Below are positions 45,919 through 62,018 of a DNA stretch of 64,000 bases, piece after piece. Both the position numbers and the translations under genes were made by a program. Below the pieces are notes generated by a model that was not told where the DNA came from, searched no databases, and saw nothing but the letters and a program-made list of their open reading frames with translations. Source of the DNA: Chitinophagaceae bacterium IBVUCB1 (GTDB taxonomy: Bacteria > Bacteroidota > Bacteroidia > Chitinophagales > Chitinophagaceae). Positions within the stretch are counted from its first letter, which is position 1; each line of letters starts with the position of its first letter. The stretch is from positions 570,057 to 634,056 of the forward strand of contig NFUW01000001.1 in NCBI GenBank assembly GCA_002127285.1, read 5' to 3'.

Positions 45919-45961
45919 TGTTAACGTCTTAGCGCCATTGTGGCTTCATCAAGTATCATAC

Positions 45962-45992
45962 AAACAAAAGCCCAACAGCGATGTTGAGCTTT
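45962..45992 (-). terminator. Terminator, last copy in the tRNA-Pro array
   Basis: On the minus strand an AAGCTCAACA / TGTTGGGCTT stem with a 4-nt loop is followed by TTTTG. It is the last of three copies, each lying behind a tRNA 3' end. Its loop is the reverse complement of the loop in the other two copies. Confidence 0.75.
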
Positions 45993-46003
45993 CCTTTTGT
46001 TCG

Positions 46004-46055
46004 TCGGGAAGACAAGATTCGAACTTGCGACCCTCCCGCCTCAAGCGGGATGCGC
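46004..46055 (-). pseudogene. tRNA-Pro-like 3' fragment (copy 2)
   Basis: A 52-nt piece identical to copy 1 at 46116-46167. It runs from the 3' side of the D stem through an anticodon arm with loop CTTGAGG, the variable loop, the full T arm and the acceptor 3' strand CTTCCCG plus A. The 5' acceptor strand and most of the D arm are absent, so it cannot fold into a tRNA alone. Confidence 0.8.
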
Positions 46056-46115
46056 CATCCATTCATAACATAAAACAAAAAACCCAACATCGCTGTTGAG
46101 CTTTCCTTTTGTTCG

Positions 46116-46167
46116 TCGGGAAGACAAGATTCGAACTTGCGACCCTCCCGCCTCAAGCGGGATGCGC
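46116..46167 (-). pseudogene. tRNA-Pro-like 3' fragment (copy 1)
   Basis: Same 52-nt structure as the copy at 46004. The acceptor and T-arm halves are identical to the intact tRNA-Pro, but the anticodon arm differs (stem TCCCG/CGGGA, loop CTTGAGG) and matches the 5' fragment at 46559-46616 instead. Confidence 0.8.
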
Positions 46168-46190
46168 CATCCATTCATAACATAAAACAA

Positions 46191-46223
46191 AAAGCCCAAC
46201 ATCGCTGTTGAGCTTTCCTTTTG
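46191..46223 (-). terminator. Terminator directly after tRNA-Pro(GGG)
   Basis: On the minus strand a stem AGCTCAACA / TGTTGGGCT with a 4-nt loop is followed by TTTTTG, starting about 10 nt after the tRNA 3' end. An equivalent copy lies at about 46080-46111. Confidence 0.75.
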
Positions 46224-46227
46224 TTCG

Positions 46228-46301
46228 TCGGGAAGACAAGATTCGAACTTGCGACCCCTTGCACCCCATACAAGTGCGCTACCGGGCTGCGCCACTTCCC
46301 G
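46228..46301 (-). tRNA. tRNA-Pro (anticodon GGG)
   Basis: A 74-nt cloverleaf: acceptor CGGGAAG pairs with CTTCCCG, discriminator A; D stem GCGC/GCGC around AGCCCGGTA; anticodon stem CTTGT/GCAAG with loop ATGGGGT, giving anticodon GGG; variable loop GGGTC; T arm GCAAG-TTCGAAT-CTTGT. The C1-G72 pair and A73 fit proline identity. CCA is not encoded. The gene begins 5 nt after the stop codon of the GIY-YIG gene and is followed by a terminator. Confidence 0.93.
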
Positions 46302-58396: not shown

Positions 58397-60319
58397 ATGG
58401 AAGAAATAGCAGCAGGCCCATTGCTCGGCAGGATTGAATATCCTGCGGATTTGAGGAAACTGAATAAAACTGAACTACAGCAGGTTTGTAATGAGCTGAG
58501 GCAATTCATTATAGACTGCGTTAGCATACATGGCGGTCACTTTGGTGCTAGCCTCGGCGTGGTAGAACTGACCGTTGCCCTGCATTATGTCATGAATACA
58601 CCCGACGACCAGCTTGTATGGGACGTGGGGCATCAGGCATACGGGCATAAGATACTTACAGGCCGCCGCAAAGTGTTTCATACCAACCGCAAATACGGCG
58701 GGTTGAGCGGTTTCCCCAAACGCAGCGAGAGCGAATATGATACATTTGGTGTAGGGCACTCGTCCACGTCTATATCTGCCGCATTGGGTATGGCTATCGC
58801 GTCCAAACTGCAGGGCGATACCAACCGCCAGCACGTAGCCATCATAGGCGATGGTGCCATGACGGCAGGGCTGCCTTTTGAGGCTATGAACCACGCGGGT
58901 GTCAGCAACAGCAATGTGCTGATAATACTTAACGACAATAATATGTCTATAGACCCCAACGTAGGGGCATTGAAAGAATACCTGACAGACATTACCACAT
59001 CGCATACCTACAACAAGTTTCGCGATGATGTGTGGAAGCTGCTGGGCAAACTGCCTGCTGCCGACTTCCAGAAGATTGGTTCTAAGATTGAAGCCAGCCT
59101 GAAGGGCATGGTATCAAAATCGAGCAACCTGTTCGAGGCACTGAACCTACGCTACTTTGGGCCTGTTGACGGGCACAATGTATTGAAGCTGGTAGAAACG
59201 CTCGACCACCTGAAAGACATCCCCGGCCCCAAGCTGCTACACATCAAAACAGTGAAAGGTAAGGGCTACGATCTGGCAGAGCAAGACCAGACTTTGTGGC
59301 ACGCCCCCGGCACGTTTGACAAGGTAACGGGCAAAATCAATAAGAAAATCATTACTACCCCCGAACCGCCTAAATATCAGGATGTGTTTGGGCATACGAT
59401 TATAGAACTGGCAGAGAAAAACCCTGCTATTATGGGCATCACGCCTGCCATGCCATCGGGCTGCTCGCTGAAGTATATGATGGAAGCCATGCCCGACCGT
59501 GCCATAGATGTAGGCATAGCAGAACAACACGCCGTAACACTGAGCGCAGGGCTGGCTACAAGGGGCATGAAGGTGTTTTGCAATATCTATAGTTCCTTCA
59601 TGCAGCGTGCATACGACATGGTGATACACGATGTGGCCATACAAAAGCTGCCCGTTATCTTCTGTCTGGACCGTGCAGGCCTTGTGGGCGACGACGGGCC
59701 AACACACCACGGCTGCTACGATATACCGTATATGCGCTGCATACCGCATATGGTAGTTAGTGCACCGATGAACGAGGCAGAACTGCGCAACCTGATGTAT
59801 AGCGCACAGTTAGAAGACAACAAGCAGCCCTACGTTATCCGCTACCCACGCGGGCAGGGTGTAATGCCCGAATGGCGCACACCGATGCAGAAGATTGAAA
59901 CAGGCACAGGCCGCATGATAAAAGACGGCGAAGATGTAGCGATACTGACGCTGGGGCACCCCGGCAACTTTGCCGTTAAAGCATGCAGCGATTTGCAAAC
60001 CGAGGGACTGAACCCCGCGCACTACGATATGCGCTTTGCCAAGCCGCTGGATGAAAAACTGCTGCACCAGATAGCCCGCAAATACAATAAGATAATAACC
60101 GTAGAAGACGGTACCATAGTGGGTGGATTTGGTAGTGCGGTGCTGGAGTTTATGGCAGAAAACAACTACACACCAGAACTAAAGATGCTGGGCATCCCCG
60201 ACAGGCTGGTAGAGCATGGCAAACCAGAAGAGCTGCACCACGAATGTGGCTACGATGCCAAAGGCATTGCCGAAGCTGTAAAGGAAATGGTGAGTAAGCA
60301 AGTAAGTGAATTAGTGTAA
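58397..60319 (+). CDS. dxs: 1-deoxy-D-xylulose-5-phosphate synthase
   Basis: A 640-residue thiamine-diphosphate enzyme, first step of the MEP isoprenoid pathway. HGGHFGASLGVVELTVALHY near residue 45 carries the catalytic His. The TPP site is VAIIGDGAMTAGLPFEAMNHAG and VLIILNDNNMSI near 150-180. The transketolase-like domain has AVTLSAGLATRGMKVFCNIYSSFMQRAYDM near 380 and LDRAGLVGDDGPTHHG near 420. The C-terminal domain has TVEDGTIVGGFGSAV. Length is normal. Confidence 0.97.
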   Translation: MEEIAAGPLLGRIEYPADLRKLNKTELQQVCNELRQFIIDCVSIHGGHFGASLGVVELTVALHYVMNTPDDQLVWDVGHQAYGHKILTGRRKVFHTNRKYGGLSGFPKRSESEYDTFGVGHSSTSISAALGMAIASKLQGDTNRQHVAIIGDGAMTAGLPFEAMNHAGVSNSNVLIILNDNNMSIDPNVGALKEYLTDITTSHTYNKFRDDVWKLLGKLPAADFQKIGSKIEASLKGMVSKSSNLFEALNLRYFGPVDGHNVLKLVETLDHLKDIPGPKLLHIKTVKGKGYDLAEQDQTLWHAPGTFDKVTGKINKKIITTPEPPKYQDVFGHTIIELAEKNPAIMGITPAMPSGCSLKYMMEAMPDRAIDVGIAEQHAVTLSAGLATRGMKVFCNIYSSFMQRAYDMVIHDVAIQKLPVIFCLDRAGLVGDDGPTHHGCYDIPYMRCIPHMVVSAPMNEAELRNLMYSAQLEDNKQPYVIRYPRGQGVMPEWRTPMQKIETGTGRMIKDGEDVAILTLGHPGNFAVKACSDLQTEGLNPAHYDMRFAKPLDEKLLHQIARKYNKIITVEDGTIVGGFGSAVLEFMAENNYTPELKMLGIPDRLVEHGKPEELHHECGYDAKGIAEAVKEMVSKQVSELV

Positions 60320-60332
60320 AAATCCATCAAAG

Positions 60333-60740
60333 ACACAAGTACAAGCTCCTCACCTGCTAAGGAGGGGACAGATTTTGTTTTGCGTATGCAAAACGAAATC
60401 AGGGGTGGTAATACTCGCGCAAGTATTTTACCAAACACAAGTACAAGCTCCCCGCCTGCTAAGGAGGGGACAGATTTTGTTTTGCGCAGGCAAAACGAAA
60501 TCAGGGGTGGTAACACTCGCGCAGGTAGTTTACCAAACACAAATACAAAACTCCCCGCCTGCTAAGGAGGGGACAGATTTTGTTTTGCGCAGGCAAAACG
60601 AAATCAGGGGTGGTGATACGCGCACAAGCAGTTTACTAAACACAAGTACAAGCTCCCCGCCTGCTAAGGAGGGGACAGATTTTGTTTTGCGCAGGCAAAA
60701 CGAAATCAGGGGTGGTAAAGCTCGCGCAGGTAGTTTACCA
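60333..60740. repeat. Four tandem 102-bp hairpin-rich repeats
   Basis: Units start at 60333, 60435, 60537 and 60640 (102, 102, 103 and 101 bp). Each has three inverted repeats: TCCCC...GGGGA around CCT/AGG; a 13-bp stem GATTTTGTTTTGC with one G-T wobble; and TGGTAA...TTACCA. Unit 1 has GTAT in the second loop where the others have GCAG, while the stem is kept. A last hairpin CTCCTCCTT/AAGGAGGAG follows at 60758-60778. Nothing else occupies the dxs-DUF559 gap of about 510 bp. Confidence 0.9.
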
Positions 60741-60833
60741 CCTCCCCCTACGGGTACTCCTCCTTACCAAGGAGGAGAGCTTTGTTTGCTTTGCATAACT
60801 TTACTTACTTTATTTTTATACTTGTAATTGCAA

Positions 60834-61196
60834 ATGCACAACAGAAAAATCAATAACCTTTCTTATCTCAAAGACAGGCGAAAGGAGTTGAGGAACAACC
60901 TTACACCTGCTGAGGCTGCTTTATGGAAACTATTACAGAAAAGCCAGCTTAAAGGCAGAAAATTCAGGCGGCAGCATAGCATTGATAATTACATTGTTGA
61001 TTTTTATTGTCCTGCCGAAAAATTAATAATCGAACTGGACGGTCAAGTACACAACAGCCCTATAACAGCACTCAATGATGCCGACCGCGACAATCACCTG
61101 AAATCACTTGGTTATAAAATATTACGGTTTGAAAATAAATTGGTTTTTGAAAACACCGAGTGGCTGTTGGACGAAATAGAGCGAGCGTTTAACTAA
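60834..61196 (+). CDS. DUF559 endonuclease-domain protein
   Basis: A 120-residue protein of the DUF559 family (Vsr/PD-(D/E)XK-like fold). LRNNLTPAEAALWKLLQKSQL is the hallmark start, then GRKFRRQHSIDNYIVDFYCPAEKLIIELDGQVH near residue 40-75 with the Asp and Glu-x-Asp active-site residues. KSLGYKILRFENKLVFENTEWLL closes the fold. Nuclease activity is inferred from fold. The start is the ATG at 60834; a TTG two codons earlier is less likely. It lies directly after the 102-bp repeat array. Confidence 0.9.
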   Translation: MHNRKINNLSYLKDRRKELRNNLTPAEAALWKLLQKSQLKGRKFRRQHSIDNYIVDFYCPAEKLIIELDGQVHNSPITALNDADRDNHLKSLGYKILRFENKLVFENTEWLLDEIERAFN

Positions 61197-61391
61197 GCAC
61201 TATTTCAAAACGCTAAAGACAATGGCAGAAATTGATGAATTGGAGGTTAATTGTGATTATGTGTTATAAACCAGTACTACAAATTGGTATAATCAAAACA
61301 ACAGTACCGTCGGCTCTTGTGAGCTAGTTAAGAATACGCAATAGCTGGGCATTTGTACGTTACAATATATTTGTCAACTGCAAATATTGCA
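61197..61391. other. Intergenic region without recognisable feature
   Basis: About 195 bp of A/T-rich sequence between convergent genes. I see no convincing gene, hairpin or promoter. Confidence 0.5.
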
Positions 61392-62018
61392 TTAGCAAAT
61401 AATATTAAAAACAACTGAGCCTAATTTACGTACATAGCCGTCAATATAAGCCTCAATTTCTTCAAAAAAAACCTTGTCGCCCTGCTTTAGTTCGTCAAAC
61501 CATTTTTTTACTTCTTCATCACATTTCGGACCAATGATTTTTTTGCTTAATTGTTGTCCATCACACTTTAGTATTGTAACCTCAAAACTCTTAACATCAT
61601 AGGTCGTACTATTTCCATAATAATTAAGTCGCTTTAAGTTTTCATTTAGGTAAATGCTAAGTTTGCTTTGCTTGATATAATTAGGCTCTCCACCCCCATC
61701 CATAATTGGATTAGGCAGAGACTTAATCCTGAATTCTTGTTTGCCAATTAGTTTATTATCTCTTTTAGAGTATAAACTTAATGTTGTGTATCCTTTTCGA
61801 TTTAATGTCACGATATATTTACAAGGGTTGTCAGTTGGTTCTACTTTGCCGTAATTCGACACTAGCTTCAAGTCTTTACATTTATACATATTTGCAGCTA
61901 ATGTTATTTCGTTAGGCATATCTACAAACAATATATTCACCTTGCTTGCAATAACAAACTCTTGTGCATTACAAGTAAAGTATGTCATTCCTACGATAAA
62001 CAGCAGAATAGTCCTCAT
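61392..62018 (-). CDS. Secreted protein resembling the GldM C-terminal region
   Basis: A 208-residue protein. The signal peptide is MRTILLFIVGMTYFTCNAQ. The mature part resembles the C-terminal domains of gliding/T9SS protein GldM. One unit starts FVIASKVNILFVDMPNEITLAAN and ends FRIKSLPNPIMDGGG; the next has SFEVTILKCDGQQL, WFDELKQGDKVFFEEIEAYIDGYVRKLGSVVFNI. The GldM N-terminal helix and long periplasmic linker domains are missing. It stands alone between DUF559 and truB. The match is from memory of the family pattern. Confidence 0.65.
   Translation of the reverse strand: MRTILLFIVGMTYFTCNAQEFVIASKVNILFVDMPNEITLAANMYKCKDLKLVSNYGKVEPTDNPCKYIVTLNRKGYTTLSLYSKRDNKLIGKQEFRIKSLPNPIMDGGGEPNYIKQSKLSIYLNENLKRLNYYGNSTTYDVKSFEVTILKCDGQQLSKKIIGPKCDEEVKKWFDELKQGDKVFFEEIEAYIDGYVRKLGSVVFNIIC

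Follow-up and report, generated by a model that had tools for sequence, protein, structure and literature searches.

Hairpin repeats beside a DUF559 gene in a Chitinophagaceae genome look like part of an unrecognised family of tiny mobile elements with a nuclease gene between fold-back repeats

Several described systems resemble parts of the locus analysed here, a repeat array beside a DUF559 gene in a stretch of 64,000 nucleotides (the window) from Chitinophagaceae bacterium IBVUCB1. REP/REPIN-RAYT systems share with it palindromic repeats, often in inverted pairs, next to one nuclease gene, with solo copies elsewhere, and this is the parallel that the first-pass annotation had drawn. RAYTs are HUH single-strand transposases, whereas the window protein has a PD-(D/E)XK/Vsr-type fold and its relatives lie as whole elements in frame within genes; no Y1 HUH transposase was found beside the repeats, so that the parallel holds as an analogy but not for the enzyme. 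Rickettsia palindromic elements are inserted in frame in protein genes and are not known to encode a nuclease; the DUF559 elements are likewise palindromic and in frame, but do encode one. Like homing elements, the DUF559 elements occupy conserved genes at fixed sites with a patchy presence, and one of these sites (LeuRS site 1) appears to be used by independent lineages. The modelled window protein also resembles EDxHD homing endonucleases in its catalytic-domain fold (I-Bth0305I, 3R3P). I-Bth0305I has long additional DNA-binding regions, according to PMC3943268, while the window protein is a single 120-aa domain without an extended DNA-binding region. Unlike homing elements carried by introns or inteins, the relatives' DUF559 domains are kept in the reading frame and bounded by fold-back repeats, and no intron or intein was seen in these scans. 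The repeats themselves are comparable to the E. coli motif TM_ECO or PIT, with a C-rich arm, a G-rich arm, a 3-nt loop and a G-rich third strand, dispersed and in inverted pairs. This arm/loop/third-strand pattern was described as an intrastrand triplex motif by Holder 2015 (PMC4666352), always intergenic in MG1655 and without a mobility gene nearby, and that text contains no word starting with nuclease or endonuclease. In contrast to TM_ECO as described there, the motif studied here bounds a nuclease gene and also occurs inside reading frames. We found no account of DUF559 as a mobile element in searches of open-licence PMC papers.

Tandem-repeat analysis of the window with TRF gave a period of 102 with 4.0 copies and 90% matches at 60333-60740. 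The array, downstream of dxs, is real and consists of four units at 60335-60743, all on the plus strand: unit 1 at 60335-60436, unit 2 at 60437-60538, unit 3 at 60539-60641 and unit 4 at 60642-60743. The first-pass annotation had described four near-identical units of 102 bp; the array was confirmed, with lengths of 102, 102, 103 and 102 bp. Each unit contains, in this order, a pyrimidine-left GC hairpin (hairpin A, CTCCCCgCCTGCTAAGGaGGGG), a hairpin with a 13-bp stem and a 4-nt loop (hairpin B, GATTTTGTTTTGC-nnnn-GCAAAACGAAATC) and AGGGGTGG; unit 1 is laid out as hairpin A, hairpin B, GGGGTGGT and a third stem. In unit 4, hairpin A, which folds, lies at 60653-60674 (copies at 60346, 60448 and 60551) and hairpin B at 60678-60707 (copies at 60371, 60473 and 60576). 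Both hairpins occur four times in the window against 0 expected from shuffles. One unit had been said to differ solely in a hairpin loop. In unit 1, the change within hairpin B is indeed confined to the loop (GTAT for GCAG), yet this unit departs from the others in hairpin A and in the third stem too. The same description had overlooked an inverted half-unit on the minus strand at 60737-60780, formed by ACCACCTCCCCC and then the hairpin CTCCTCCTTaccAAGGAGGAG at 60757-60777. The structure of the array is far above chance, with z-scores of -5.0 for the RNA fold of one repeat unit, -10.9 for the fold of 60333-60830 and -6.8 for the DNA fold of 60651-60783. By eye, the AGGGGTGG that follows hairpin B mirrors GGAGGGGA with one mismatch, and hairpin B occupies the position of the would-be second loop of the triplex motif, this second loop being a 30-nt hairpin. 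A congener locus (L042) shows, again by eye, the same layout with hairpin B in the second loop. The TM subtype pattern had 0 matches in the window's own genome, and Rfam returned nothing relevant for 60200-61400 apart from one sub-threshold miRNA match. Elsewhere in the window, a tandem repeat at 45957-46257 (2.7 copies of 112 bp) extends into a tRNA-Pro gene (46227-46301, minus strand) and duplicates part of it.

The gene beside the array, at 60834-61196 on the plus strand and 53 bp beyond the inverted half-unit, encodes a DUF559 protein of 120 aa with an endonuclease fold, as judged by profile match and predicted structure. Its assignment to DUF559 was borne out by PF04480 (E 3e-34, 117.5 bits against a curated cut-off of 20.6) and by a match to 3hrl (E 1e-18); Pfam gave no families for it other than DUF559 and MTES_1575. 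The genome (3.41 Mb, two contigs) carries one DUF559 and the full 102-bp unit at this locus only, while a 29-bp piece of the terminal unit lies at one further place. This terminal unit (window 60704-60783) is dispersed within the genus, beside DUF559 at three loci (L164, L165, L167) and without DUF559 in stretches of 1.5-2 kb (L169-L174). Unit 4 and the inverted half-unit together form a REPIN-like unit that is also dispersed in congeners (L164, L165, L169, L171, L172, L174). dxs was matched in 14 of 14 congeners; the DUF559 part was matched in 6 of these, always away from dxs. The window element has repeats on its left only. To its right, at 61224-61269 on the plus strand, comparison by eye with a congener (G151, locus L141) identified the 3'-end remnant of an acetyltransferase-like gene, which follows dxs in that congener and is longer there than the window's piece. 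The remnant suggests that local DNA, perhaps including a right-hand repeat, may have been lost at the window locus. Further on, 61392-62018 encodes a protein with a GldM C-terminal domain, and a related stretch lies near dxs in another congener (G154).

The surroundings of DUF559 were then compared in two sets of relatives. The family set held 109 domains of at least 80 aa in 105 loci of the window's family, the window's locus excluded. Matches below 80 aa and four loci contained in larger ones (L019, L020, L024, L042) were dropped, and weaker or fragmentary matches were left out, which makes all in-gene counts lower bounds. The named set, 80 domains in 79 of 80 loci, leans to near relatives because it took the best 80 of at least 581 loci from a separate scan; its loci span Bacteroidota, Chloroflexi, Cyanobacteria, Nitrospirae, Planctomycetes, Pseudomonadota and Patescibacteria, together with a Methanophagales archaeon. 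One Neisseria gonorrhoeae locus (CP119142, L266) has several CTCTCCC/GGGAGAG-type palindromes 177-571 bp downstream of its DUF559 gene. Hairpins were counted when their arms reached at least 8 and the left arm was pyrimidine-rich, and were called near within 350 bp of the domain. Their density in the family set was 1.86/kb near DUF559, compared to 0.061/kb (32 in 520,504 bp) at distances above 2 kb in the same loci. By distance, the family set gave about 4-4.5/kb over the initial 100 bp and 0.05-0.4/kb at 400-1000 bp. In the named set, the best 80 of at least 581 loci, it was 2.41/kb near and 0.085/kb (33 in 387,160 bp) elsewhere. Near hairpins stood upstream of 61, downstream of 49, on both sides of 38 and on neither side of 37 of the 109 family domains; the corresponding numbers for these best 80 were 52, 41, 35 and 22. 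Over the total sample of 189 domains in 184 loci, hairpins flanked both sides of 73 domains, compared to 2 of 1590 random positions, and either side of 130, compared to 45 of 1590; the other 59 had no hairpin of the tested type within 350 bp. Both-sided hairpins were found for 26 of the 58 family domains in long frames versus 12 of the 51 stand-alone DUF559 genes. The first-pass annotation had proposed a coupled repeat-plus-nuclease system with repeats clustering near DUF559, and had suggested that the nuclease recognises or spreads the hairpins, which stands as a hypothesis. The excess of near hairpins over the rest of the loci was 28-30-fold, and most DUF559 domains had at least one; neither an absence of excess nor a general lack of repeats was seen, and the proposed system is therefore supported, far more broadly than had been guessed. 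Its exact 13-bp stem, GATTTTGTTTTGC, proved to be just local, while the relatives keep a GC-rich hairpin and an outer G-tract. The association of hairpins with DUF559 is well supported.

The G-tract was analysed on 203 element ends oriented outwards. A tract with at least 80% identity to the mirror of the purine arm lay outside the hairpin at 67 ends, compared to 1 of 203 shuffled ends, with the other 136 falling short, and it followed after exactly 3 nt at 59 of the 67. A G-motif, most commonly GGGGTGAGG, was present at 56 of the 203 ends (3 when shuffled). Some of the relatives' ends show the TM_ECO/PIT pattern of C-arm, G-arm, 3-nt loop and mirror G-tract; in one genome (G089), six copies form a tandem array 77 bp apart. 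Among the 147 genomes of the window's family, one TM subtype occurred in 33 of 65 with a strong DUF559 match versus 11 of 70 without any (Fisher p 1.8e-5, uncorrected for phylogeny). Ten genomes with weak matches lie outside the 65, and counting weak matches as well gave 34 of 75 versus 11 of 70 (p 1.4e-4, likewise uncorrected). Two genomes (G038 and G081) were excluded from this comparison because the reversed control pattern matched in them too.

Stop-to-stop frames of at least 250 aa hold 58 of the 109 family domains. At family loci, Pfam located DUF559 within or between the domains of MetH, homocysteine methyltransferase, AroC, MetRS, CinA and IspG, and further family hosts with an internal DUF559 were adenine deaminase, IcmF, HsdR, Lhr and DNA methylases. 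DUF559 was also found N-terminal to amino-acid kinases, HisA/F, a GHMP kinase and further proteins; some of these cases may consist of two genes in a common frame. Hosts outside the window's family were HsdR, HsdM, LeuRS, MetH, another class I synthetase and riboflavin synthase, and an Eco57I type stands beside HsdR and HsdM among the restriction-gene hosts. Pfam scans of 41 host-frame proteins detected no intein or Hint family, the family LeuRS frames being judged by eye; one read-through frame (L249) gave no useful Pfam match. LeuRS carries DUF559 in at least 19 of the 147 family genomes, at site 1 (GAEIxF / VYTTRPDT) in 15 genomes and at site 2 (before NTMPGYAGS) in 6, two having both. The HsdR insert lies directly before the Walker A motif (GVIWHTQGSGKS or its like) at 4 loci, one in a genome of the window's family and one each in a Salinivirgaceae, an Acaryochloris and a Methanophagales archaeon. 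Hosts are occupied at the same sites across genera, the HsdR site being shared by Bacteria and an archaeon. In one of the HsdR proteins that contain DUF559 (L016, 106-3318), residues 265-331 form a GIY-YIG nuclease domain as well. At two other loci (L160 and L161, from G076 and G086), LeuRS site 1 lacks DUF559 but spans 75 and 64 residues, compared to 32-41 at empty sites; these stretches are possible relics of the element.

In one genome (G064), two copies of a 461-bp unit are 99.35% identical and have unrelated flanks, and therefore reveal recent movement; no target-site duplication was found at this duplicate. One copy stands at the 5' end of a DUF58 gene, the other at that of a GHMP-kinase gene. 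The host ATG of the second copy reads in frame into DUF559, and the end of the element provides a replacement ATG, which overlaps the stop codon of DUF559; a one-base difference in the first copy disrupts the frame from the host ATG. A domain tree, built on 107 columns and with many forks unresolved, gathered 47 of the 58 in-gene domains in one group without a stand-alone member (SH-aLRT 93). Mapping the insertion sites on it required 25 label changes, all groups together, versus a shuffled mean of 56; genes are mixed within the group, with AroC and LeuRS sites 1 and 2 interleaved. Vertical inheritance with loss could partly cause this same-site clustering. A single clade of LeuRS site 1 elements was rejected with an AU p of 0.015, in a test chosen post hoc after viewing the tree, and members of two genera (G044/G133 and G030/G124) carry different lineages at this site within LeuRS flanks that are 80-86% identical. 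Together, the AU result and the different lineages in congeners argue for repeated colonisation of the site, and each lineage there has its own repeat subtype. The mobility of DUF559 elements is well supported. Transport as phage or plasmid cargo is disfavoured, as relatives were found in 3 of 50,697 phage records and 43 of 72,556 plasmid records (one query each), some of the "plasmids" being chromosome-sized.

The nuclease is under purifying selection: dN/dS was 0.07-0.25 in the five of seven pairs for which it was computable. Ten positions are conserved at 99-100% in the 109 domains, and eight of them (E, W, R, Q, D, E, D, H) in 109 of 109. The AlphaFold model of the window protein (pLDDT 90.5) was compared to 3hrl, from DUF559's own family (Z 14.8), to the catalytic domain of I-Bth0305I (3r3p; Foldseek E 4.7e-5; VIA-align Z 12.8, rmsd 2.4, 91 aligned), to Vsr and a mitoribosomal protein (Z 10.4 for each) and to TnsA (Z 7.1, inside the common-fold range). 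As modelled, the homing endonuclease I-Bth0305I is the closest characterised fold after DUF559's own family.

The recurrence at the same sites, the hops to new genes, the invariant catalytic-type residues and the homing-endonuclease fold make a nuclease-driven copying element with preferred targets the simplest reading, and we read the DUF559 element as unspliced and homing-like. We give a probability of about two in three to a reading in which small mobile elements of a widespread family are copied in a homing-like manner through the nuclease and the window locus is one of them, lying between genes and probably truncated at its 3' end. The association, the in-frame residence and one recent copying event are firm; the chemistry is not, and cleavage, target and copying mechanism are what we infer. 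A complete element would measure ~0.4-0.6 kb and comprise a DUF559 gene of the Vsr/EDxHD-type fold between two inverted fold-back repeats, each with a GC-rich hairpin and then, outwards and typically after 3 nt, a G-tract mirroring the hairpin arm. The nuclease would cut or nick either a preferred DNA target or the folded repeat itself, and repair of the break would copy the element in, with a homing-like site preference and occasional jumps to new genes. Copies inside genes would use the expression of the host gene. In a lineage located at gene starts, at least one copy (L064) takes over the start codon of its host and provides a replacement. Solo repeats would have arisen from elements by internal deletion or by copying in trans, and the 102-bp array of the window would be a local tandem expansion of one half-unit in which the second loop gained a 30-nt hairpin. 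The repeats may serve as folded substrates, end markers or repair stallers. Points against this reading are that neither the G064 duplicate nor the E. coli TM sites showed a target-site duplication, that 59 of 189 domains had no near hairpin, that both-sided hairpins were uncommon at stand-alone genes, that the window element and ycjD have repeats on one side only, that the TM subtype is absent from the window's genome, and that an O157:H7 genome has repeats without ycjD.

Part of these observations could also be explained if the permissive loops of host proteins collected any repeat, same-site occupation then reflecting tolerance instead of targeting by the nuclease. Two LeuRS site 1 loops hold in-frame microsatellite-like repeats instead of an element (L157, L178), and LeuRS site 2 contains a single in-frame repeat without an element in three genomes, possibly in a fourth, as such hot spots would predict; but the clustering of lineages by site across genera and the identical HsdR position in Bacteria and an archaeon suggest more than tolerance. 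We regard hot spots as a possible but doubtful explanation, and targeting and tolerance can both be partly true. The solo repeats at LeuRS site 2 also bear on a reversed relationship, in which the repeats are primary REP-like units moved by other means and the DUF559 genes are parasites that home into them as their target. The same idea draws on the solo repeats found in 11 of the 70 genomes without detected DUF559 (11 copies in G039, for example) and on seven loci of 1.5-2 kb in the window's genus (L169-L175), six with the repeat and the seventh with a fragment of it, none of which carries DUF559. Against it stand the higher frequency of the TM subtype in genomes with DUF559 (the uncorrected comparison given above), the distinct repeat subtype that each LeuRS site 1 lineage brings with it and the absence of a mobility gene near the repeats in Holder 2015 (PMC4666352), and we consider it unlikely.

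That DUF559 is a host repair or defence nuclease fused to its partners for function, with nearby GC hairpins being regulatory or fortuitous, seems very improbable. Several hosts are restriction genes (HsdR, HsdM, Eco57I type) and the fold resembles Vsr, yet most of the Pfam-named family hosts are unrelated metabolic or translation enzymes, the repeats that flank the domain are part of the reading frame, congeners vary in whether they carry it and a near-identical duplicate has unrelated flanks. PADLOC matches for DpdF and mREase were weak only, and a defence role was not retained. The nuclease-driven element, if correct, would assign a role to the uncharacterised family DUF559 and show that selfish nucleases can survive inside essential genes with neither an intron nor an intein. 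It also carries a warning for annotation: in many "DUF559-fused" synthetases and metabolic enzymes, the domain may belong to a resident element and not to a functional fusion. In its widest form, it would define a new class of selfish DNA in Bacteria and Archaea, made of unsplicing homing-type nucleases that are translated inside essential enzymes, replicate the triplex-forming repeats bounding them and represent the missing mobiliser of TM/PIT, with ycjD and TM_ECO as an example; we see this extension as standing in even balance.

DUF559 elements may account for E. coli repeats whose spread lacks an explanation and which were studied without a mobiliser (Holder 2015), and ycjD, the DUF559 gene of E. 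coli, together with TM_ECO makes the question directly testable in E. coli K-12. A 419-bp ycjD query matched 3365 of 5426 genomes. TM-type repeats lie 3' of ycjD, where the closest points inwards and one further off points outwards; none was found within 600 bp upstream. ycjD replaces the eef operon in phylogroups A, B1 and C, according to PMC12817139; at three ycjD-less loci an efflux operon stands in its place, and for this reason ycjD has no clean insertion boundary. Comparison of the TM sites recX-recA, rhaA-rhaD and phnP-yjdP with and without the repeat showed compound indels that did not resolve a target-site duplication. Because of self-matches to the sapF-fabI stretch and confounding by phylogroup, the copy number of the repeat relative to ycjD was not used as proof. 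A 49-bp query had a median of 11 places among the 4821 of 5426 E. coli genomes with any. Among the matches listed for 30 E. coli records, which include one small record and places within sapF-fabI itself, the 19 genomes with an annotated ycjD had 9-21 places and the 10 without had 3-14; an O157:H7 genome without ycjD still had 14.
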